Shown here one piece after another: positions 915 to 9,453 of a stretch of DNA of 11,832 nt. The stretch's first letter is position 1, and every line of letters starts with the position of its first letter. The stretch covers positions 1 to 11,832 of the forward strand of contig PCAV01000124.1 in NCBI GenBank assembly GCA_002730675.1. The letters run 5' to 3'. The notes under the pieces were generated by a model, which saw nothing but the letters and a program-made list of their open reading frames with translations, was not told the origin of the DNA and did not search any database. A program made the translations under genes and the position numbers. This DNA is from Rhodospirillaceae bacterium. GTDB taxonomy: Bacteria > Pseudomonadota > Alphaproteobacteria > Thalassobaculales > Thalassobaculaceae.

Positions 915-2264
915 TTAATAAGGAGTTCCCTTTGCTACTCTTTCAAAGAGCAACTCAGGAAGTTTCAACGCTAAATCAGGCCAAATCATTATCGCTCCGA
1001 GACAGATGAATTCTAGGGCAATGAAAGGTAAGACGCCTCTGTACATATCCCCTAACCGTATTTCTGGTGGGCTAATTCCACGCAAATAGAATATAGCAGG
1101 TGCCATCGGCGGTGTTAAATAGCTCGTCTGAATAACAACTAGGAACATAATACAGAACCAAACATCATCCACTCCCATAGACCTCAATACCGCTACTGAA
1201 ACAGGGATTATAATTAGGATGATGGATATTAGATCTAAAACAAAGCCTGCAATGAATGCTATTACCATTAGGATGATCATTGTCGCCCATGGTCCCAATT
1301 GGGCCGTTTCTAATAAATTTTGAACAGCACTTATTCCGCCAAGGGCGACAAAAACGCCAGCAAACATCACGCCGCCTAGTAAAATGGTAAGGATCATTGC
1401 GGTTATTTGTAATGTTTTCAAAAATGCTTGTTGCATGATATCAAAATTGAAAGTTCCGTATATTAAAGTCATGACAACAGTTCCAATCGCTCCCATGGCG
1501 GCAGCTTCAGTCGGAGTTGCCAATCCCAGCATGATTGTGCCGAGCACAGCGAAAATAAGTATCAATGGCGGAACAAGTGCCGTAGCGGTAATCCACACTT
1601 TTCTAACAAATGGAGGATCATCTTCGGCCGGAGGAAGGGATGGACCGTCCTGCGGCCTGATAATACATCGGCCGAGAATATAAAGAATATATAAACCGGC
1701 TAGCATCAAACCAGGTATAAGCATGCCAACGAAAAGGTCACCCACTGACACATCGGCAACAGGGCCAAGTATCACAACGACTACTGAAGGTGGAATTATG
1801 GTGCCGAGTGAACCACCTGCACAAATTGTCCCTGAGATTAGACCTTTGTCATATGCATATCGAAGCATTACTGGTATCGCTAATAGACCCACAACCGATT
1901 CTGTTGCGCCAACAACGCCACTGGCTGCTGCAAACACAACGCAAAGTAAAACAGTTCCAACGGCTAGTCCGCCAGGAAGGCGCCGCGTCCAAAGATGAAT
2001 TGCTTCAAAGAGTTTTTCAGCGATCCCTGATCGTTCAAGCATGGTCCCCATAAATATAAATAGTGGAACAGCTGCAAGAACATAATAGGATGCTACATCG
2101 TCAACTTTTGCTACCAACTGATAAACTAGTGCGTCTCCAAAACGATAATATCCAAAAAAGAGTGCAACACCCATTAAAGAGAATGCTACAGGGAACCCAA
2201 TAAAGATGCATATCATCAATGCTGGAAACATTAACAGGCCAATGCCTAGTGCTTCAAAAGTCAT
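915..2264 (-). CDS. dctM: TRAP transporter large permease (DctM family)
   Basis: The ion-coupled transport subunit of a TRAP (tripartite ATP-independent periplasmic) transporter, working in the inner membrane with a small permease and a periplasmic binding protein. It has 449 residues, near the usual family length, and is almost entirely hydrophobic with about a dozen segments. Family landmarks: A-V-P-L-F-I-F-M-G (65-73), F-A-A-A-S-G (111-116), the signature G-G-S-L-G-T-I-I-P-P-S (150-160), G-L-A-T-P-T-E-A-A-A-M-G (247-258) and L-T-P-P-M-A-P (383-389) in the second half. The V-V-G-A-T variant after residue 116 and the style of the partner point to the 'mannitol/chloroaromatic compound' TRAP subgroup (the FcbT3-like group), which would fit an aromatic or cyclic acid; that substrate is inference. 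Its ATG overlaps the small permease stop (ATGA at 2261-2264), indicating translational coupling. The symbol is a family name only. Confidence 0.93.
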   Translation of the reverse strand: MTFEALGIGLLMFPALMICIFIGFPVAFSLMGVALFFGYYRFGDALVYQLVAKVDDVASYYVLAAVPLFIFMGTMLERSGIAEKLFEAIHLWTRRLPGGLAVGTVLLCVVFAAASGVVGATESVVGLLAIPVMLRYAYDKGLISGTICAGGSLGTIIPPSVVVVILGPVADVSVGDLFVGMLIPGLMLAGLYILYILGRCIIRPQDGPSLPPAEDDPPFVRKVWITATALVPPLILIFAVLGTIMLGLATPTEAAAMGAIGTVVMTLIYGTFNFDIMQQAFLKTLQITAMILTILLGGVMFAGVFVALGGISAVQNLLETAQLGPWATMIILMVIAFIAGFVLDLISIILIIIPVSVAVLRSMGVDDVWFCIMFLVVIQTSYLTPPMAPAIFYLRGISPPEIRLGDMYRGVLPFIALEFICLGAIMIWPDLALKLPELLFERVAKGTPY

Positions 2265-2845
2265 GATCTGTTCTCCACACTAGCATCTTCATTGGTGACA
2301 TAATCCATTGTGGCCTCTTCAAGCGCACCAAAACCGTACTGCTCGATATCTTTACCCTGCAATATCATGAAGTTTTTGAGCACTTCAGATATAGCTTGTA
2401 ATGACAATGAAATGAAACCGATCAACCAAACAACGCGGAATGGCCAAATAATTGGATTCCAAGCCGATTCACCGGAAACTTCGTTTGTCACATAAGCTTC
2501 GATTGCATATTCATAAAGTCCATAGGTTGTCCAAATGCACCCGGGAAGCATGAGAATGAGATAACCTAGAAAGTTAACCAAAGCTTTCCGCTTTAGGCTC
2601 ATTTGCTCATACAAAAAGTCTACGCGAATGTGTGCTCCCTGTTTCAAGCAGTAACCCATCCCAAACATATAAGTTGTCCCTGCCAGCATATAGCCAACTT
2701 CATATGCCCAAAATGTTGGCGCATTGAAGAAATGTCGTGCAAGTACTTCATATACCATGGACAATATAAGTGGGAGCATAACCCATGCACCTACAAGTCC
2801 GATTAGTCCCGAAAAGCGTTCGATTAGTCGAACAATAGCTACCAT
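2261..2845 (-). CDS. dctQ: TRAP transporter small permease (DctQ family)
   Basis: The four-helix small membrane subunit of a TRAP transporter; 194 residues. Hydrophobic segments lie at about 12-34, 48-66, 88-106 and 136-156. The family hallmark H-I-R-V-D (72-76) is present, with F-N-A-P-T-F-W-A-Y-E upstream (40-49) and G-E-S-A-W-N-P after helix 3 (125-131). These are features I associate with the mannitol/chloroaromatic (FcbT2-like) small permeases. The C-terminus (from about 160) is a polar, acidic tail. AAAGGA lies about 7 bases before the ATG. It is the first gene of a two-gene unit with the large permease; no binding-protein gene lies upstream or downstream within the window, so the third component must be encoded elsewhere or be lost. 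Confidence 0.9.
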   Translation of the reverse strand: MVAIVRLIERFSGLIGLVGAWVMLPLILSMVYEVLARHFFNAPTFWAYEVGYMLAGTTYMFGMGYCLKQGAHIRVDFLYEQMSLKRKALVNFLGYLILMLPGCIWTTYGLYEYAIEAYVTNEVSGESAWNPIIWPFRVVWLIGFISLSLQAISEVLKNFMILQGKDIEQYGFGALEEATMDYVTNEDASVENRS

Positions 2846-3217
2846 TAGTAAATCCTTTTCTGAGATTAAATTTGCGACCGGTTTTTCATTTTTTGCGGTT
2901 ACTCGATTGCTGACACTTTCCTTCTCAATACAGATTGGGAACAGAATTTCTCTTCATTTCTAAAAAAAGGGCATCTGTCGTTTGTAAAAACCAATATGTA
3001 GAAAACTGTTATTCAAAAGCATTAATGATAGTGACTTGGGTTTTTTGGAGCGTCAACCTTGGACATGTAACTGATATAAGCCATCAGTAGGCCGATATCA
3101 TCAATGATTCCGATCAAATATTCTTGCATTGGCGATGTGGCAATATTTCTTTTAATTGAAGATATTTGAGATCGATAAAAATGTGGCACAGAAGAATTAC
3201 TTTTTTAGGATATGAAA
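2846..3217. other. Divergent intergenic region between TRAP permeases and the first SDR
   Basis: A 372-base AT-rich region separating minus-strand TRAP genes from plus-strand SDR genes, so it should carry two outward promoters. No clear -35/-10 pair or operator palindrome could be picked by eye. The only coding-like content is a short minus-strand frame at 3022-3129, described separately. There is no recognisable trace of a TRAP binding-protein gene. Confidence 0.5.
3022..3129 (-). CDS. Short unexplained reading frame, possible gene remnant
   Basis: A 35-codon minus-strand frame running ATG to TAA. Its translation begins M-Q-E-Y-L-I-G-I-I-D-D-I-G-L-L-M and ends K-N-P-S-H-Y-H; it looks protein-like rather than random, like the tail of a larger protein. 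The frame stays open upstream to 3204 with a possible GTG at 3189, but no Shine-Dalgarno sequence was seen before either start. It lies in the divergent region upstream of the TRAP genes. I do not recognise the family. It could be the C-terminal stub of a deleted gene, a small membrane-associated peptide, or chance. Confidence 0.25.
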   Translation of the reverse strand: MQEYLIGIIDDIGLLMAYISYMSKVDAPKNPSHYH

Positions 3218-3979
3218 ATGCTTGGTTTAAAAAATAAGTTGGCAATTGTAACAGGAGGAGCTTCTGGGATTGGTCGTGCAATTGTTATGCGGTTAGCCAG
3301 CTCTGGAGCATCTGTTTTTTCTGGTGATGTGGATGAAAAGGGTAATATGGAGACGGTAGACCTTGCTGCCGACTTAACGGGTGAGGTAAAGGCCGCATAT
3401 TTAGATATTGCAGACTTGAAAAGTATCGAAAGTTTTAGAAGAATCGTTTTCCAGCATCGGAAAAACGACCCAGAAAAAGCTGACATTATCGTTAATGCAG
3501 CTGGTTGGGATAAAATTCAACCTTTTTTGGATTCAACACCAGAATTTACAGACAAGGTTCTCAATACCAATCTAAAAGGCCCCATCAACGTAGTTCGAAC
3601 ATTTCTGCCCTCGATGATTGAAGCGAATGACGGGAAAATTATAAATATTTCGAGTGATGCGGGACGTGTCGGGTCTATGGGGGAGACGATTTATTCAGGA
3701 GCTAAGGGTGGTATCATTGCGTTTACGAAATCCTTAGCAAGGGAAACTGCAAGACACCGGATTAACGTCAATTGCGTATGTCCTGGTCCGACAAATACGC
3801 CTTTACTCGCGGTTCAACCTGAAGAGATGCAAGAAAAATTAACCAGAGCAATACCCTTTAGAAGAATAGCGGAGCCGGAAGAGATTGCCGATGCGGTTCT
3901 ATTTTTTGCCTCTAATATGTCTAACTATATCACGGGGCAGGTGCTCAGTGTGAGCGGGGGGCTTACAATGGCAGACTGA
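3218..3979 (+). CDS. SDR family oxidoreductase, BadH-like (2-hydroxycyclohexanecarboxyl-CoA dehydrogenase-like)
   Basis: A classical short-chain dehydrogenase of 253 residues. Visible: Rossmann motif T-G-G-A-S-G-I-G (12-19), D37 after strand 2 (favouring NAD(H)), N-A-A-G (93-96, usually NNAG), N118, S146, Y159 and K163 as the catalytic set. Long stretches match what I recall of Rhodopseudomonas BadH: the A-G-W-D block after strand 4, S-D-A-G-R-V-G-S-x-G-E around S146, C-P-G-P-T (188-192) and the terminal T-G-Q-V-L-S-V-S-G-G-L-T-M. BadH oxidises 2-hydroxycyclohexanecarboxyl-CoA to the 2-keto thioester in cyclohexanecarboxylate/benzoate degradation; a related hydroxyacyl-CoA substrate is the likely role. 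The start at 3218 is preferred over the ATG at 3212 because AGGA (3207-3210) is 7 bases away rather than 1, and the N-terminus then aligns with BadH. It is followed after 44 bases by another SDR, probably in one operon. Confidence 0.88.
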   Translation: MLGLKNKLAIVTGGASGIGRAIVMRLASSGASVFSGDVDEKGNMETVDLAADLTGEVKAAYLDIADLKSIESFRRIVFQHRKNDPEKADIIVNAAGWDKIQPFLDSTPEFTDKVLNTNLKGPINVVRTFLPSMIEANDGKIINISSDAGRVGSMGETIYSGAKGGIIAFTKSLARETARHRINVNCVCPGPTNTPLLAVQPEEMQEKLTRAIPFRRIAEPEEIADAVLFFASNMSNYITGQVLSVSGGLTMAD

Positions 3980-4023: not shown

Positions 4024-4785
4024 ATGAGATTTGAGAACAAAGGTGTTTTGGTAACAGGCGCAACAGGGGGAATTGGCCGGGAGACCTGTCTTCAATTTGC
4101 AGCAGAGGGGGCGGCAGTCGCTGTAACGGACTTAGATTTGGCACTTGCCGAGAGATTGGCTCACGAAATCCAAGAAAAAGGCGGCAAAGCAGTTGGTTAT
4201 GAACTTGACGTAACAAACCAAGAACAGACTGATGCTGTTGTCGATCAGTCTGCAACAGATCTAGGATCAATTGATATCATTTTTTGTAATGCGGGAATCC
4301 GAGAGATTCAGCCGGCGCACCAGTTACCGTTAGACGAGTGGAGAAACGTCATTGAAGTAAACGTCACTGGTGTTTTTGTGTCAGCGCAAAGCTTTGCAAA
4401 ACACTGCATCTCAAAAAGTAAGCCGGGCGTAATCATAAATACTGCATCTACGTTAGGCGTGATGGGTTCAACATCAAGGTGTGCTTATTCAACTTCTAAA
4501 CATGCAGTTGTTGGGATGACAAAATCGTTAGCAATGGATCTTGCTCCTCACAATATTCGCGTAAACGCCGTGGGGCCAGGTGTTATACGCACACCACTGA
4601 CTGAACCTTATTTCCAAGATGCGGAGATGGCGAAAAAAATAAACGACATTCACGCTATGAAGCGCACGGGTGTTCCATCTGAGATAGCAAGTGCAGTTCT
4701 TTTTCTCGCCAGTGATGACGCAAGCTTCTGCACAGGTCACAATTTGGTTGTTGACGGCGGTTGGACAGCAGGAAAAAGTTTTTAA
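4024..4785 (+). CDS. SDR family oxidoreductase (classical, NAD-type)
   Basis: A 253-residue classical short-chain dehydrogenase, cytoplasmic. Motifs: T-G-A-T-G-G-I-G (11-18), acidic D36 at the end of strand 2 (suggesting NAD(H)), C-N-A-G (88-91, usual NNAG), N113, S142, Y155 and K159, then the G-P-G-V-I-R-T-P loop (184-191) and a C-terminal V-V-D-G-G-W (242-247). A strong AAGGAG at 4011-4016 sits 7 bases before the ATG. It differs too much from the preceding SDR to be a recent duplicate. Together they may oxidise two different hydroxyl groups, or successive intermediates, of one pathway. The family is too broad to name a substrate. Confidence 0.88.
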   Translation: MRFENKGVLVTGATGGIGRETCLQFAAEGAAVAVTDLDLALAERLAHEIQEKGGKAVGYELDVTNQEQTDAVVDQSATDLGSIDIIFCNAGIREIQPAHQLPLDEWRNVIEVNVTGVFVSAQSFAKHCISKSKPGVIINTASTLGVMGSTSRCAYSTSKHAVVGMTKSLAMDLAPHNIRVNAVGPGVIRTPLTEPYFQDAEMAKKINDIHAMKRTGVPSEIASAVLFLASDDASFCTGHNLVVDGGWTAGKSF

Positions 4786-5095
4786 ATCTCTCTATGATCT
4801 GTATTTGACCGGATTATGTCGCTGCCTGCTTTTAAGCTTTAATTGCTGCCGTCGTGCCTGGTGGTGCGTCCATATCTGGTAACAATGGCATCCTCTAGCG
4901 ATATATCCCGATGTGCTACCATGCCACCGATTTTGACTGCATACTTTCTATTGCATTAAAGAAATCGTGTTTGTGTAAAGTTATCTTAAAGAATTTCAAA
5001 CTAATGGATCTGTCTATACTGTTTTTCCAATTTTTACATTCTAATTTGTGGCGAACTGATTATTATTACGACCAAAATAAGGAAAAGGGGCCAGC
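4786..5095. other. 310-base intergenic region before the CmcJ-like gene
   Basis: No convincing gene on either strand. A TTGACT at 4933-4938 resembles a -35 box, but the -10 at the right distance (around 4956-4961) matches poorly. A 19-codon minus-strand frame at 4832-4891 has a protein-like sequence (P-D-M-D-A-P-P-G-T-T-A-A-I-K-A) and could be the tail of a deleted gene. No hairpin with a T-run was found after the SDR at 4785. Confidence 0.45.
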
Positions 5096-5953
5096 ATGCT
5101 TCATAGTGGAAACAGTTCAGAAATAGAAAATAACGGCACTATCTCGGCTGAATTGACATATATTGTCAGGCAAAAAGAAAAGCCATACTTTGAGAGTTCT
5201 CACAGCACGGGGGGTGAGCCCAAAGTGTTTTTTGAAACTGAAAAGCGACGTGCCAACATTAGTGACATGCGTCCTCACGTTTCTCGATTTTCAATTGATA
5301 CCAATGGATTTGAATTGATTAATCACGAAACGAGCGTTGATGATCTATATAATGATGCCTTAATAGAGGCACGATACAACCAAGAGTTAGAGGATCTATT
5401 AAAGCAACACACAGGGGCAGACAAAGTTGTCATTTTTGATCACACACGACGGTCAAATAATGATGACGGTGCCAAAAACGCAGATGGTAGGCGAGGGCCA
5501 GCTGTTAGAATACATGCCGATTATACCGTCAAGTCTGGACCGCAGAGAGCAAAAGATACTTTGGGTGAACATGACTTTAACGAAATTATGGCTAACGGTG
5601 GCAGAGTAGTTCAGGTAAATGTATGGCGACCTATTACAGGGCCAGTAGAAAGTTCCCCTCTCGCTCTTGCAAGTGCCACCAGTATTCCCGCGAATGATCT
5701 TGTTGCGACAGATCAGCGCTTTCCGGATAGGGTTGGTGAGATATACCAATTAGCTTTTGGAAAAGGCCATGAGTGGTTCTATGCTCCAGGTATGATGCCT
5801 AATGAGGTCATACTAATAAAAGGTTGGGATAGCTTAAATGATGGCCGAGCCCAATTTACACCGCACGGAGCTTTTGAGCATCCATCCGAGACGCCAAAAT
5901 CAAAGCCTAGAGAAAGTATTGAGACGCGCACTTACCTCGTCTTCAAAGGATAG
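5096..5953 (+). CDS. CmcJ/NvfI-type (AsaB-like) putative Fe(II)/2-oxoglutarate hydroxylase/desaturase
   Basis: A 285-residue protein that I assign to the CmcJ/NvfI family (related names: AsaB hydroxylase/desaturase, gibberellin GA4 desaturase-like). Landmarks: V-V-I-F-D-H-T-R-R (111-119), H140-A-D142 in the order R-I-H-A-D-Y-T as the likely His-x-Asp iron ligands, the block Q-V-N-V-W-R-P-I (173-180), then F-Y-A-P-G-M-M (228-234), G-W-D-S (243-246), and T-P-H-G-A-F (255-260), whose H257 is the likely distal iron ligand. Arg residues near the end (R272, R278) could bind 2-oxoglutarate. The length is normal and there is no signal peptide. Known members act in fungal and bacterial secondary metabolism, so the substrate here is open. 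AGGGG lies 5 bases upstream of the ATG. The gene stands alone, 310 bases after the SDR pair, and converges with the DUF35/thiolase relics. Confidence 0.82.
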   Translation: MLHSGNSSEIENNGTISAELTYIVRQKEKPYFESSHSTGGEPKVFFETEKRRANISDMRPHVSRFSIDTNGFELINHETSVDDLYNDALIEARYNQELEDLLKQHTGADKVVIFDHTRRSNNDDGAKNADGRRGPAVRIHADYTVKSGPQRAKDTLGEHDFNEIMANGGRVVQVNVWRPITGPVESSPLALASATSIPANDLVATDQRFPDRVGEIYQLAFGKGHEWFYAPGMMPNEVILIKGWDSLNDGRAQFTPHGAFEHPSETPKSKPRESIETRTYLVFKG

Positions 5954-6026
5954 CACCGGTCAAAACGCTTGTATTCTTGCGTATAACTTCAAGGCGGATC
6001 CGGTTGATCTGCTTCTTCATCTATCG

Positions 6027-6472
6027 TTAATAGTGAAGAGCAAACTCGTCACAGATATCCTTGAAAATCATTTTTACTCTCGTTCCAATTCAAACTCTTT
6101 TCATCATCTCGGGGGGAGAAAATTCGTCATCGGCAGTCATTAAGTTTCCGGCAACGCGCAAAGCGTCGCGGTCCGATGGCTCGCTTTTCCGTGAGTCAAG
6201 ATCAGCTAAAACTATCATATAAGGAACCTTATCCTGGAAGGCTGGTTGTATAGGGTGATAAACTTCTACATACGAGTGCACAACGCCCTTTCCTTCTACG
6301 GAAAAACCCATTTTGCATCTCTGTCAGTTGTCCAAGGACAAGCGGTGGTGGGCGTATATCCTAGTAGCCCGTTGGATTTACCTTTCTGCAGCCTGAAATC
6401 TCTTTTCGAGCAATATTGAAAAAAATCAAGGTTTTCCCGATCTAGATCTTCAACTGTAAGCATCATGCCCAT
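6027..6472 (-). pseudogene. Broken DUF35 OB-fold (acyl-CoA-associated, Zn-ribbon-type) gene
   Basis: A gene ruin for a DUF35/OB-fold protein of about 147 residues, the partner usually encoded beside thiolase-like enzymes. Reading from ATG 6472 (AAGGTGA upstream), the N-terminal half runs in one frame: L-T-V-E-D-L-D-R-E-N-L, then F-R-L-Q, then A-C-P-W-T-T-D-R-D-A-K-W-V-F. At the T-run (A-run 6302-6306 on the plus strand) the frame slips by one base, and the second half follows: S-V-E-G-K-G-V-V-H-S-Y, H-P-I-Q-P-A-F, V-P-Y-M-I-V-L-A-D-L, R-V-A-G-N-L. An in-frame TGA at 6090-6092 interrupts it; the same frame then continues with I-G-T-R-V-K-M-I-F-K-D and ends at TAA 6027-6029, as the family's C-terminus does. 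Three of the four Zn-ribbon cysteines appear lost. One frameshift plus one nonsense codon make a functional product unlikely. Confidence 0.82.
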
Positions 6473-6508
6473 GCAATCACCTTAAATTGGCATTATTATC
6501 TCCCCGGT

Positions 6509-6910
6509 TTATCCGTGGTCCTTAGCTATTACGATGGCGGATCCAATTCCGGGCATTGTCCATCCTAAGTTCGCTGTGACTTCCACATTTTTAACCTGCC
6601 TGCAACCACCTTCACCTTTCTTGCAGAACCCATAATCTCTAAATTGAAGAATGGTTGTGAATTTGAATGCATCATACGACCCTGTTACGTCTACGTCGTC
6701 TGGTCCCAGCCCTGCATTCGGTCAAAGTATTCCTTTTGCATAATATCCTGCATCTGTCATAGCATTTGATATGGCCCAAGTAGCGAGTGAGTGAGTTAAT
6801 TCCTCAGATCCGCGTCTATAAGTTGTTTCTGCAACACCGCAAATCGAGTATTTACCGCGAAGATAATTCTCAGAGCTAACGTCATGGTCAGAGATGCTGC
6901 TTAGTGTCAT
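6509..6910 (-). pseudogene. Degraded thiolase-like (lipid-transfer/SCP2-thiolase type) gene with internal deletions
   Basis: Remnant of a thiolase-like enzyme. Three conserved blocks lie in one reading frame from ATG 6910 (GGGGGA 9 bases upstream). An N-terminal block has L-R-G-K-Y-S-I-C-G-V-A-E-T-T-Y-R-R-G-S. After a TGA at 6722-6724 comes a central-to-late block, G-P-D-D-V-D-V then Y-D-A-F, G-F-C-K-K-G-E-G-G. The last is a C-terminal block, C-R-Q-V-K-N-V-E-V, N-L-G-W, G-S-A-I-V-I-A-K-D, ending at TAA 6509. Intact family members have about 380-400 residues; only 133 codons remain. Roughly 200 residues are missing between the first and second blocks, including the usual active-site cysteine region, and perhaps 50-60 between the second and third. 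Because the frame is kept across these junctions, the losses look like true deletions, not sequencing slips. It lies 36 bases upstream of the DUF35 relic, the normal arrangement of a thiolase-DUF35 operon. Confidence 0.8.
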
Positions 6911-7094: not shown

Positions 7095-7898
7095 ATGAGG
7101 GTAATTGTAACTGGAGCTAGCCCAGGTATTGGTGGTTCAACAATTCGAAAATTAGCACAAATAGCAAATCAAAAGGGTGAACAATTACAAATAGCGGCTT
7201 GTGAGATTACATTAACAGATGATTTAAAGTTCCTTACTAAGGAAGTAGAAAGATTGGGAGCTAATGTAAAGATCTTCACAGGAGACCTTTCTGAGCCAGA
7301 GTGTCCAGCGAAAATAGTTGGTGATTCACTCAAGGCTTTTGGTGGATTGGACGCAGTTGTAAGTAATGCAGGTATCACAAGTCCTGCTCCTCTAATAGAT
7401 CTTCCAGTGTCAAAATGGGACAAATTATTAAATGTGAATACGCGCGCAACACTTTTATTAGCACAGGCTGCATACCCTGCGTTGAAAGAATCAAAGGGCG
7501 CCTTAGTTGCTGTCGCATCCATGTCGGGGATGGGAGCGCACCCGGGGATGGGGGCATACAGTCCCAGTAAAGCCGCATTGATATCTCTTTGTCAGGTGCT
7601 CGCACAGGAATGGGCATGCGATGGAATAAATGTAAATACGGTTTCACCGGGAATGGTACGTACCCCTTTAACACAGAAAGTTTATGAAAATAATCAGATA
7701 GCAAAAGAAAGAGCTGCTTTAGTGCCGTGGGGCAGGGTAGGGAATCCGGAAGACATCTCCAACACGATCAGTTTTCTCTTGTCGCCCGAGGCCAGTTATA
7801 TAACGGGCCAGAATATCCTAGTAGACGGGGGCTTCGTTGACTCTTTATATCGTCATATCCCAGGTCTACCCGATAGTAGTAAGATTGATAAGAATTAG
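7095..7898 (+). CDS. SDR family oxidoreductase with extended first loop and C-terminal tail
   Basis: A short-chain dehydrogenase of 267 residues. The N-terminus enters strand 1 at once: V-I-V-T-G-A-S-P-G-I-G-G (3-14). Catalytic and structural residues: S-N-A-G (90-93, usual NNAG), N115, S142, Y155, K159; then S-P-G-M-V-R-T-P (184-191) and T-G-Q-N-I-L-V-D-G-G (237-246). Between helix 1 and strand 2 there are several more residues than usual (about 23-31), and strand 2 ends in A-A-C-E rather than a clear Asp or Arg, so coenzyme preference is not obvious. After the GG motif there is a 20-residue tail (247-267), longer than in the two SDRs upstream. An MFS transporter gene follows 15 bases later, so the two are probably co-transcribed. 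Substrate unknown; the pairing suggests it acts on the transported compound. Confidence 0.87.
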   Translation: MRVIVTGASPGIGGSTIRKLAQIANQKGEQLQIAACEITLTDDLKFLTKEVERLGANVKIFTGDLSEPECPAKIVGDSLKAFGGLDAVVSNAGITSPAPLIDLPVSKWDKLLNVNTRATLLLAQAAYPALKESKGALVAVASMSGMGAHPGMGAYSPSKAALISLCQVLAQEWACDGINVNTVSPGMVRTPLTQKVYENNQIAKERAALVPWGRVGNPEDISNTISFLLSPEASYITGQNILVDGGFVDSLYRHIPGLPDSSKIDKN

Positions 7899-7913: not shown

Positions 7914-9113
7914 ATGTTCGCACTTTTAAGGGGAGCTAACCCGAAGTCTCGCATTATTTGTGTTTGCTTTTTAATGGCGGCAATTGCTTGGGGTTCTGTA
8001 TTTTACGGGCATAGCGTCTATTTAAAAGCTCTAACGGGAGACGGCAGATGGTCAATCGGTCAAATTTCAACCGGAATTACGATCTTTTGGATTTCAAGTT
8101 TGCCAGGAACACTTTTTGTTGGATATTTGATAGATAAAAAGGGTGCAAGTTGGGTTGTTTTCATAGGCGCATGTTGCATCGGTTTTTCGCTAGTAGGAAT
8201 AAGCTGGGCGCGCGATCTTTGGCTAATATTTGTTTGTTACGGAATAATGGGTTTTGCCTATCCGGCAGTTGGCGCTGCAGCTATTAGCGCCACACTTTCT
8301 CCATGGTTTTTTAAAGATTTTGGATGGGCATTGGGACTTTCCCTCACTGGAGCAAGTGTTGGAGGCGCTATAATCCCACCTATTATGGCGTATACTATAC
8401 AAGAGCTCAGTTTCCCCCTGACAATGATTTTCGTAGGGGGAATAGTATTCTGTATATTGTGCATGTTAACGTTCATACTTGCATATACCAAACCTGTAAC
8501 GGTGAAGTCCGTTACTCCAATTCATTCTAAGAATCCCATTGCGGTAGGCTTATTTAAACAGGGGGTTTTTTGGAGAATTTCGATTGCGGCAGGCATGGCG
8601 CTTGCTGGTCAGGTTGGTTTTCTGGCTCATCAAATACCTATCGCCCTTCAGCAAACAAGCGAATTTGCATCTGTAATTTCCGTTACTATAGTTGCAATAT
8701 CAGCAGCTATAGGTCGTCTAATGACAGCGTTCGCTAGTCGTTTAGTTGGCGTGACCAAAATAGCGGCTCTTTGCTACGCTTTCCAAGGGGTAGGGATTCT
8801 TATAGTTAGCCTTGCCAAAACGACAGCTCTACTTTGGTTTGGTTGCTCGGTGGCTGGCCTTGTCGTTGGGGCAATTGTAATGCTCTCTCCAATGCTTGTA
8901 AGAGAAGCGTTTGGATCTATGGACTATGGTAAAAATTACGCCGCGGTTAACGTCATTTTATATCTCTTCGCGGCTGTAAGTCCTTGGTTTCTGGGACATA
9001 TGTTCGATCATCATCAATCGTATGCAGTAGGATTGATGACTTTGTTTATTATTCAAGTAGTTGCTGCTGTTCTTATATTGCCAATTGTTAACTCAGCAAG
9101 AGTTAGCCCTTGA
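7914..9113 (+). CDS. MFS transporter, monocarboxylate-transporter-like
   Basis: A 399-residue secondary transporter of the inner membrane with about twelve hydrophobic segments and a polar central loop around residues 190-210. After the second helix lies an MFS motif A variant, G-Y-L-I-D-K-K-G-A-S (70-79). The stretch S-P-W-F-F-K-D-F-G-W-A-L-G-L-S-L-T-G-A-S (129-148) followed by G-G-A-I-I-P-P (150-156) resembles bacterial MCT/OFA-type carriers for small organic acids. AGGA lies 6 bases before the ATG. It is the second gene of a likely two-gene operon with the SDR. Its last 11 coding bases overlap the 3' end of the convergent small gene. Import or export, and the substrate, cannot be decided. 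Confidence 0.88.
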   Translation: MFALLRGANPKSRIICVCFLMAAIAWGSVFYGHSVYLKALTGDGRWSIGQISTGITIFWISSLPGTLFVGYLIDKKGASWVVFIGACCIGFSLVGISWARDLWLIFVCYGIMGFAYPAVGAAAISATLSPWFFKDFGWALGLSLTGASVGGAIIPPIMAYTIQELSFPLTMIFVGGIVFCILCMLTFILAYTKPVTVKSVTPIHSKNPIAVGLFKQGVFWRISIAAGMALAGQVGFLAHQIPIALQQTSEFASVISVTIVAISAAIGRLMTAFASRLVGVTKIAALCYAFQGVGILIVSLAKTTALLWFGCSVAGLVVGAIVMLSPMLVREAFGSMDYGKNYAAVNVILYLFAAVSPWFLGHMFDHHQSYAVGLMTLFIIQVVAAVLILPIVNSARVSP

Positions 9114-9453
9114 GTGCTTGTTCCATCTCCTCCTTAAGAGCATCAAGTTCATCTTTTGCATCGAGAGCTGGCTTAACGGGCTCTGGTTCTTTGTTAGCAG
9201 ACCCTTTTCTTCTCTCATTCGTTAATCTAATGGTTTCTGCTTTTGTCTCCGCAGTAACTTTTATTGTTTGTCTTTTATCAACCGGTAGAGAATCAAAAAT
9301 AGTTTCTGCTTGATCGTAGTCAGATTGCGATCCACTCTCCGCCGCTTTATTAAGCTTACGCGCTACGCCTTCTGTACCTTTTAATTTAGTACTATCAGCT
9401 AGAATGCGTAAGCCTTGTCTTGTATCCGCGTCTACCTCTTTGACGTCATCCAT
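9103..9453 (-). CDS. Small highly charged protein of unknown function
   Basis: A 116-residue soluble protein with no signal peptide, no membrane segment and no cysteine. It is rich in Lys, Glu, Asp and Ala with few aromatics; the C-terminal third (about 80-116) has a Pro/Lys/Glu linker followed by a run with helix and coiled-coil character (D-E-L-D-A-L-K-E-E-M-E-Q-A-L). A strong GGAGG lies 5 bases before ATG 9453, which supports a real gene. Its 3' end overlaps the convergent MFS gene by 11 bases. A GC-rich hairpin abuts the ribosome binding site. I do not recognise a family; a protein-binding or nucleic-acid-associated role is possible but unsupported. Confidence 0.68.
   Translation of the reverse strand: MDDVKEVDADTRQGLRILADSTKLKGTEGVARKLNKAAESGSQSDYDQAETIFDSLPVDKRQTIKVTAETKAETIRLTNERRKGSANKEPEPVKPALDAKDELDALKEEMEQALKG

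Follow-up and report, generated by a model that had tools for sequence, protein, structure and literature searches.

The window analyzed here is the whole of contig C124, 11,832 nucleotides, of the draft genome of a Rhodospirillaceae bacterium, perhaps a marine one to judge by its relatives (designated G000; 2.11 Mb in 148 contigs, 68% complete). It carries a catabolic gene cluster in which three SDR genes, a CmcJ/NvfI family oxidoreductase (the CmcJ-like gene), an MFS transporter and TRAP transporter genes are open. Between the CmcJ-like gene and SDR3, the minus strand holds the broken remains of a thiolase-like gene and a DUF35 gene, and the gap between SDR2 and the CmcJ-like gene contains what appears to be the remnant of a Rieske oxygenase gene (Table 1). 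A conserved gene of 116 amino acids (9103-9453, minus strand; 91% in G001) has 11 bases in common with the end of the MFS gene.

For comparison, four other genomes of the same genus were used (five genus genomes in all), among them G001, together with a family set of 36 genomes. The identical 36 genomes represent the order. Genomes G031, G033, G034 and G035 all belong to one other genus. Presence in family genomes was scored at E values up to 1e-140 for the thiolase and up to 1e-15 for DUF35 in an open frame. Lesions were read mainly from a gap-tolerant global nucleotide alignment of the relic with G001. Note that the G001 sequence contains Ns beside the T-run, where it is nonetheless consistent with the intact frames of G031, G033, G034 and G035.

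Table 1. Genes, gene remnants and lesions in the window (positions counted from its first nucleotide).
Feature	Position	Strand	Details and evidence
TRAP transporter genes DctM and DctQ, open	915-2845	-	profile scan
SDR1, open	3212-3979	+	profile scan
SDR2, open	4024-4785	+	profile scan; intact public relatives at 97, 92 and 91%
Rieske oxygenase remnant	4833-4943	-	about 37 C-terminal codons; tblastn, shuffles
CmcJ/NvfI family oxidoreductase, open	5096-5953	+	NF041278, E 2.3e-85; orthologues in relatives
DUF35 relic, nearly full length	5974-6493	-	PF01796; tblastn pieces 6305-6493, 6036-6299 and 5974-6027
Nonsense change near DUF35 C terminus	5989-5991	-	Trp codon to TGA; alignment
One-base loss, then stop, DUF35 relic	6027-6035	-	TAA at 6027-6029; alignment
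Nonsense change, DUF35 relic	6090-6092	-	Gly codon to TGA; profile match, alignment, codon blocks
T-run, DUF35 relic	6302-6306	-	frame shifted 2 bases vs G001; alignment
Stop in codon 4 of DUF35 relic	6482-6484	-	harmless if a later ATG served as start
Thiolase relic, C-terminal block	6509-6604	-	codons 392-422; tblastn with G001 protein, alignment
Joint of thiolase deletion 2	6604-6615	-	201 bp (67 codons) vs G001, in frame; short imperfect direct repeat in G001
Thiolase relic, block with YDAF motif	6605-6757	-	residues 274-324; tblastn with G031 protein; PF22691
Nonsense change, thiolase relic	6722-6724	-	TGG to TGA; alignment with G001
Joint of thiolase deletion 1	6743-6757	-	666 bp (222 codons) vs G001, in frame; short imperfect direct repeat in G001
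Thiolase relic, N-terminal block	6758-6910	-	codons 1-51 of intact gene, start codon retained; tblastn with G001 protein, nucleotide alignment, codon blocks
SDR3, open, divergent from relic	7095-7898	+	profile scan; G001 orthologue 82%
MFS transporter, open	7914-9113	+	PF07690, E 2.4e-21

Gene remnants in the window

A profile search of the whole G000 genome placed PF22691 (Thiolase_C_1) at 6602-6721 (E 3.6e-10, above the curated cut-off) and PF01796 (OB_ChsH2_C) at 6063-6299 (E 2e-8, above cut-off, with one internal TGA), both on the minus strand. When the relic was scanned as four pieces, two matched Pfam (8.6e-11 and 6.3e-9). The N-terminal piece of each relic gene matched no Pfam profile; both of these pieces match the intact G001 proteins in tblastn searches. 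Alignment with G001 also shows that the stop at 6509-6511 is the thiolase gene's own and has been retained.

Both thiolase deletions are in frame, for which the chance is 1 in 9. The segment removed by the second one carried the second catalytic tyrosine, so this deletion alone should end catalysis of the Ltp2 type. In G001, the sequences at both joints agree at 7 positions with no more than one mismatch, a level reached by 0.4% of random pairs, although this percentage is flattering because it was taken from the best of 12 positions. In G031 the second joint has 8 matches (0.1%) and the first stands at 17%; G033 has no excess at either joint (5.6 and 17%). Since the excess is found at both joints in G001, at the second only in G031 and at neither in G033, deletion by slippage between repeats is only suggested. 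Relative to G001, the DUF35 relic has accumulated two frameshifts and three nonsense changes.

The original prediction had read two adjacent minus-strand frames, spanning 6027-6910, as a dead thiolase-like gene followed by a dead DUF35 gene. The significant profile matches to both families and the alignment with G001 agree with this reading, and the alignment also bears out its large in-frame thiolase deletions and the three lesions that it named: the T-run frameshift and the stops at 6090-6092 and 6722-6724. The DUF35 end of its interval fell short, since lesions continue down to 5989-5991 and the relic thus extends to 5974; the stops at 6482-6484, 6027-6029 and 5989-5991 are further ones.

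Judged from translated alignment, the Rieske oxygenase remnant is a third dead gene beyond this prediction and outside 6027-6910. A tblastn search over the whole window returned it with the Rieske proteins of G033 (E 1.6e-5) and G031 (E 9e-5). Its score was 85 (80 with the G031 protein), against a maximum of 58 (53) among shuffled sequences, and none of 1000 dinucleotide shuffles reached it. G031 and G033 have a whole Rieske gene (PF00355 and PF19301) flanked by SDR2 and the CmcJ-like gene; the corresponding gap in the window measures 310 bp, and the remnant occupies the place and the strand of the intact gene. Within the genus (five genomes), the best Rieske matches are those of G001 and G002, at only 36-37% identity. 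The CmcJ-like gene of G001 is cut by the contig end, and that assembly lacks SDR2 as well. A Rieske-like match on C68 of G000 (36% over 82 residues) falls in a small frame of 137 amino acids, which was read as a ferredoxin-like gene and set aside.

At E up to 1e-100, six of the 36 genomes in the family set contain a Rieske relative, in three cases at only 48-50% identity. Neither G005 nor G006, in which the thiolase/DUF35 pair is retained together with SDR1, SDR2 and the CmcJ-like gene, has one at this threshold. The cluster therefore does not always include the oxygenase, and the two losses in the window need not share a step or an event.

Intact relatives and the course of decay

The intact pair is found where the relic lies. 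In G001, a thiolase-like gene of 422 codons (L039:10410-11678) and a DUF35 gene of 173 codons (11696-12217) stand between the orthologous SDR and the CmcJ-like gene, and G031, G033, G034 and G035 have the pair at the equivalent place, as the original prediction had expected of related genomes. In G005 and G006 some 1.2 kb separate the pair from the CmcJ-like gene, with the SDR unmatched within the stretch fetched. From all the evidence we conclude, with a probability of about 0.88, that 5974-6910 on the minus strand holds pseudogenes of a thiolase-like/DUF35 operon whose counterparts in relatives are intact at the corresponding position.

At the thresholds given above, the thiolase is present in 9 of 36 family genomes with one match each. 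The same nine have a single DUF35 match in an open frame; the DUF35 gene is broken in G000 and gave no match in the remaining 26. The other three genomes of the genus, which are 59-68% complete, returned neither gene at these thresholds. The DUF35 gene adjoins the thiolase in all nine family genomes and in all 14 class genomes that have the thiolase (14 of 385, E up to 1e-200), one DUF35 gene being clipped by a contig end. The clade of this pair (L039:10410-12217; P0003-P0122) is very conserved, with 81-90% identity to G001 among the best 120 of 4751 homologues.

In two other explanations the function would survive. First, the pair could have moved or been duplicated, with an intact copy in the third of the genome that the assembly lacks and the relic as a left-over. 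The 68% completeness of G000, whose assembly yielded no intact orthologue of either relic gene, leaves room for such a copy, and relocation of modules is seen in this genus, as with the Liv genes of G031 and G001 (see below). We consider it unlikely nonetheless, since a single match per family genome for the thiolase (9/9) and for the intact DUF35 gene (9/9) means that a second copy is not usual. Second, another thiolase/DUF35 pair of G000 could have taken over the step and kept the pathway whole. Candidate pairs do exist on C105 and C108, but the thiolases there share only 36 and 34% identity with the intact orthologue, and from our reading of the frames both pairs sit among other genes; the odds of such a takeover appear to us to be similarly low.

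To return to decay of the operon, its course was followed by counting, at amino-acid sites invariant in the outgroups, changes unique to G000 and changes unique to G001. The thiolase blocks (108 sites) have 12 G000-only changes plus one stop versus 3 G001-only changes, and DUF35 (131 sites) has 15 plus one stop versus 3. Taken together, G000-only changes are found at 27 of 239 relic sites (plus two stops) versus 37 of 1232 sites in five flanking genes (Fisher p 4e-7), while for G001-only changes the relic does not exceed the flanks (6/239 versus 25/1232, p 0.62). By gene, the G000 and G001 counts in the flanks are 3 and 5 of 470 sites for LeuA, 10 and 4 of 143 for GST, 9 and 8 of 263 for MFS, 11 and 7 of 213 for SDR3, and 4 and 1 of 143 for the part of the CmcJ-like gene that is present in G001. 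Note that the flanking genes by themselves lean slightly toward change in G000 (37 versus 25, p 0.16), the CmcJ-like gene with its small excess included, and a stricter test that compares the branch ratios of relic and flanks gives p 0.04, or 0.07 with the CmcJ-like gene, SDR3 and MFS only.

Non-synonymous divergence follows the same pattern. Measured to G031, the excess of G000 over G001 is 0.053 and 0.062 for the relics, and none of the five flanking genes exceeds 0.017. Against G033 the corresponding values are 0.052 and 0.076 for the relics and at most 0.030 (CmcJ-like gene) for the flanks. Constraint on both relic genes is relaxed on the G000 branch. The dN/dS of the relic to G001 is still about 0.08, and the loss therefore looks recent relative to the split from G001.

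A search with the broken 73-residue DUF35 frame of the window returned 10 proteins from public assemblies. Candidates were limited to about 40-128 residues, a range that excludes intact DUF35 proteins and may include genes cut by contig ends. P0123 (99% identity, 11 members) and P0124 (95%) have the length and end of the window's frame, and P0123 may be the window's own cluster. P0125 (82%) and P0130 (73%) are variants that start at the window's T-run. These four of the ten begin with M[GD]FSVEG, a start that, as we read it, would come from an ATG put in frame only by the T-run frameshift. P0125 and P0127 end at the position of the stop at 5989-5991, P0126 and P0129 end at that of the stop at 6027-6029, and P0128, P0131 and P0132 have neither the M[GD]FSVEG start nor either of these ends. 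The lengths of six further proteins are 68, 84, 96, 103, 107 and 107 residues. The variants, which are known from their protein sequences alone, fit one older loss common to several lineages in which lesions are still accruing. If environmental variants have lesions in common, the loss could be dated from them.

With these data, an assembly collapse or a sequencing error that hides an intact pair, which the original prediction had kept as an alternative, becomes very improbable. G000 is a draft in 148 contigs and the lesions include a homopolymer run, but an error would not raise replacements solely in the relic and solely on the G000 branch, and frames broken in related ways are found on other public contigs (P0124, P0125 and P0130). 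We give equally little credence to the idea that the remaining short frames encode small proteins with a function or form a regulatory region: frames of 62 and 73 residues are open and the 73-residue length recurs in P0123 and P0124, but replacements are raised in these pieces and the lengths of related frames vary from 68 to 107 residues, as in decay and unlike a conserved small protein. In annotation, the short frames in 6027-6910 should not be taken as genes.

State of the remaining cluster

The gene decay at this locus is genuine and of an ordinary type, and the catabolic cluster in which it occurs is losing parts. We propose that the step served by the thiolase/DUF35 pair would have ceased to be needed, after which its genes would have decayed by ordinary mutation: slippage in the T-run, point mutations to stops and probably also deletion between short direct repeats.

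Some function probably persists in the rest of the cluster, since SDR3, MFS, LeuA, GST and the part of the CmcJ-like gene available for comparison have no comparable relaxation. SDR1, SDR2 and the TRAP genes have open frames. SDR1 and SDR2 are absent from the G001 assembly, and their pN/pS values against G031 and G033 (0.15-0.26) are uninformative on recent times. In public data (8000 best candidates scored), the SDR2 relatives at 97, 92 and 91% are clusters of 318, 38 and 36 sequences.

Other modules of the cluster differ among relatives. In G031, SDR1 and the TRAP genes are separated by Liv-type ABC transporter genes; those of G001 are on another contig with other neighbors (L151:12276-16807, C94), and a genus-wide loss of Liv genes is thereby ruled out. 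At E up to 1e-20, the 68% complete G000 assembly contains no Liv match. A molybdenum hydroxylase pair (2Fe-2S and molybdopterin subunits) is placed between MFS and SDR3 in G033 and G034 (L073:6944-9551, L071:10340-12947) and is absent from that position in G031, G001 and the window. The window's intergenic stretches were searched for remnants of the Liv and the molybdenum hydroxylase genes, and the best E values (0.28 and 0.35) are no better than chance.

One possible reading, which we hold to be rather doubtful, is that the pathway has been shortened. The pair and the oxygenase would have been dropped, and the transporters, the three dehydrogenases and the CmcJ-like enzyme would have been kept under selection for partial conversion of the substrate, the product of which might be handed to other cells. 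A literature search on CmcJ/NvfI found nothing related. Whatever its present role, the living cluster should not be assumed capable of C-C cleavage.

Comparison with known systems

Bacterial pseudogenes commonly arise by frameshift, nonsense change and deletion between short repeats, and the lesions in the window are all of these usual kinds. The sole oddity relative to ordinary pseudogenes is the presence, in one cluster, of differently decayed dead genes beside genes that look constrained. The locus is a clean case of one cluster part decaying beside constrained-looking genes, with an intact version in the same genus for comparison. Among the matches listed in a literature search on DUF35/thiolase pseudogenes, nothing related was found.

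The nature of the lost enzyme was assessed from the intact pair. We know of no characterized member of this thiolase/DUF35 clade, which has YDAF and, in this branch, has mostly lost the zinc ribbon. The neighbors of the pair in other families provide differing contexts with noisy frame lists, and these pointed to no substrate. The nearest solved structures are TcLtp2 for the intact thiolase (6ok1_A, E 2.4e-60) and ChsH2(DUF35) for the intact DUF35 protein (6ok1_B, E 6.6e-9). According to PMC12329534, the base in TcLtp2 is Tyr294 of a YDHF motif, the acid is Tyr344, and the histidine of that motif forms an oxyanion hole. Both tyrosines align with tyrosine in the intact thiolase (residue numbers counted from the alignment). 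Among the best 120 homologues, YDAF replaces YDHF in 119, with the pattern not found in one. In the same set, SGGHLCE[GA]YTHG, the pattern for the second catalytic tyrosine, is found in 116 (not found in 4), and D[VI]HGGGS, without cysteine, in 112 (not found in 8). From our reading of the alignment, D[VI]HGGGS would be the site of the thiolase nucleophile.

The same paper gives the zinc ribbon of ChsH2 as Cys-x2-Cys-x10-Cys-x2-Cys (PMC12329534). By eye, one of these four cysteines is retained in seven of nine DUF35 proteins (G001, G031, G033, G005, G006, G011 and G398); the more distant proteins of G239 and G101 have three and all four. The G031 DUF35 protein, with 173 residues, matches PF01796 only in the profile scan.

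The likeness to Ltp2 and its DUF35 partner drawn in the original prediction thus holds for the nearest structures and for both catalytic tyrosines; it does not extend to the YDHF motif, which is YDAF here, or to the zinc ribbon, which is mostly gone. Its suggestion of a steroid-type substrate found no support, given these two differences (YDAF being in 119 of the best 120 homologues) and no MaoC hydratase among the cluster genes scanned, which were part of the cluster. Based on sequence comparison, the intact pair may work like Ltp2, by retro-aldol C-C cleavage, with a modified active site. The conserved YDAF clade is a good target for enzymology.

Two characterized aldolases can be set beside the intact relatives. 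The steroid side-chain aldolase Ltp2-ChsH2(DUF35) of Thermomonospora curvata (6ok1) likewise has no nucleophile cysteine and has both catalytic tyrosines. It differs in having YDHF rather than YDAF, and a C4 zinc ribbon where the intact relatives keep one cysteine in a stand-alone DUF35 protein. The bile acid side-chain aldolase Sal-Shy of Comamonas testosteroni (9myr) also joins a thiolase fold to a DUF35 partner (E 3.3e-38 and 1.6e-6 to the intact pair). In Sal, as in the intact relatives, glycine replaces the nucleophile cysteine (PMC12329534). The same source describes a YDCY motif with an essential cysteine and a glutamine at the position of TcLtp2 Tyr344 in Sal, whereas the intact relatives have YDAF and retain the tyrosine.
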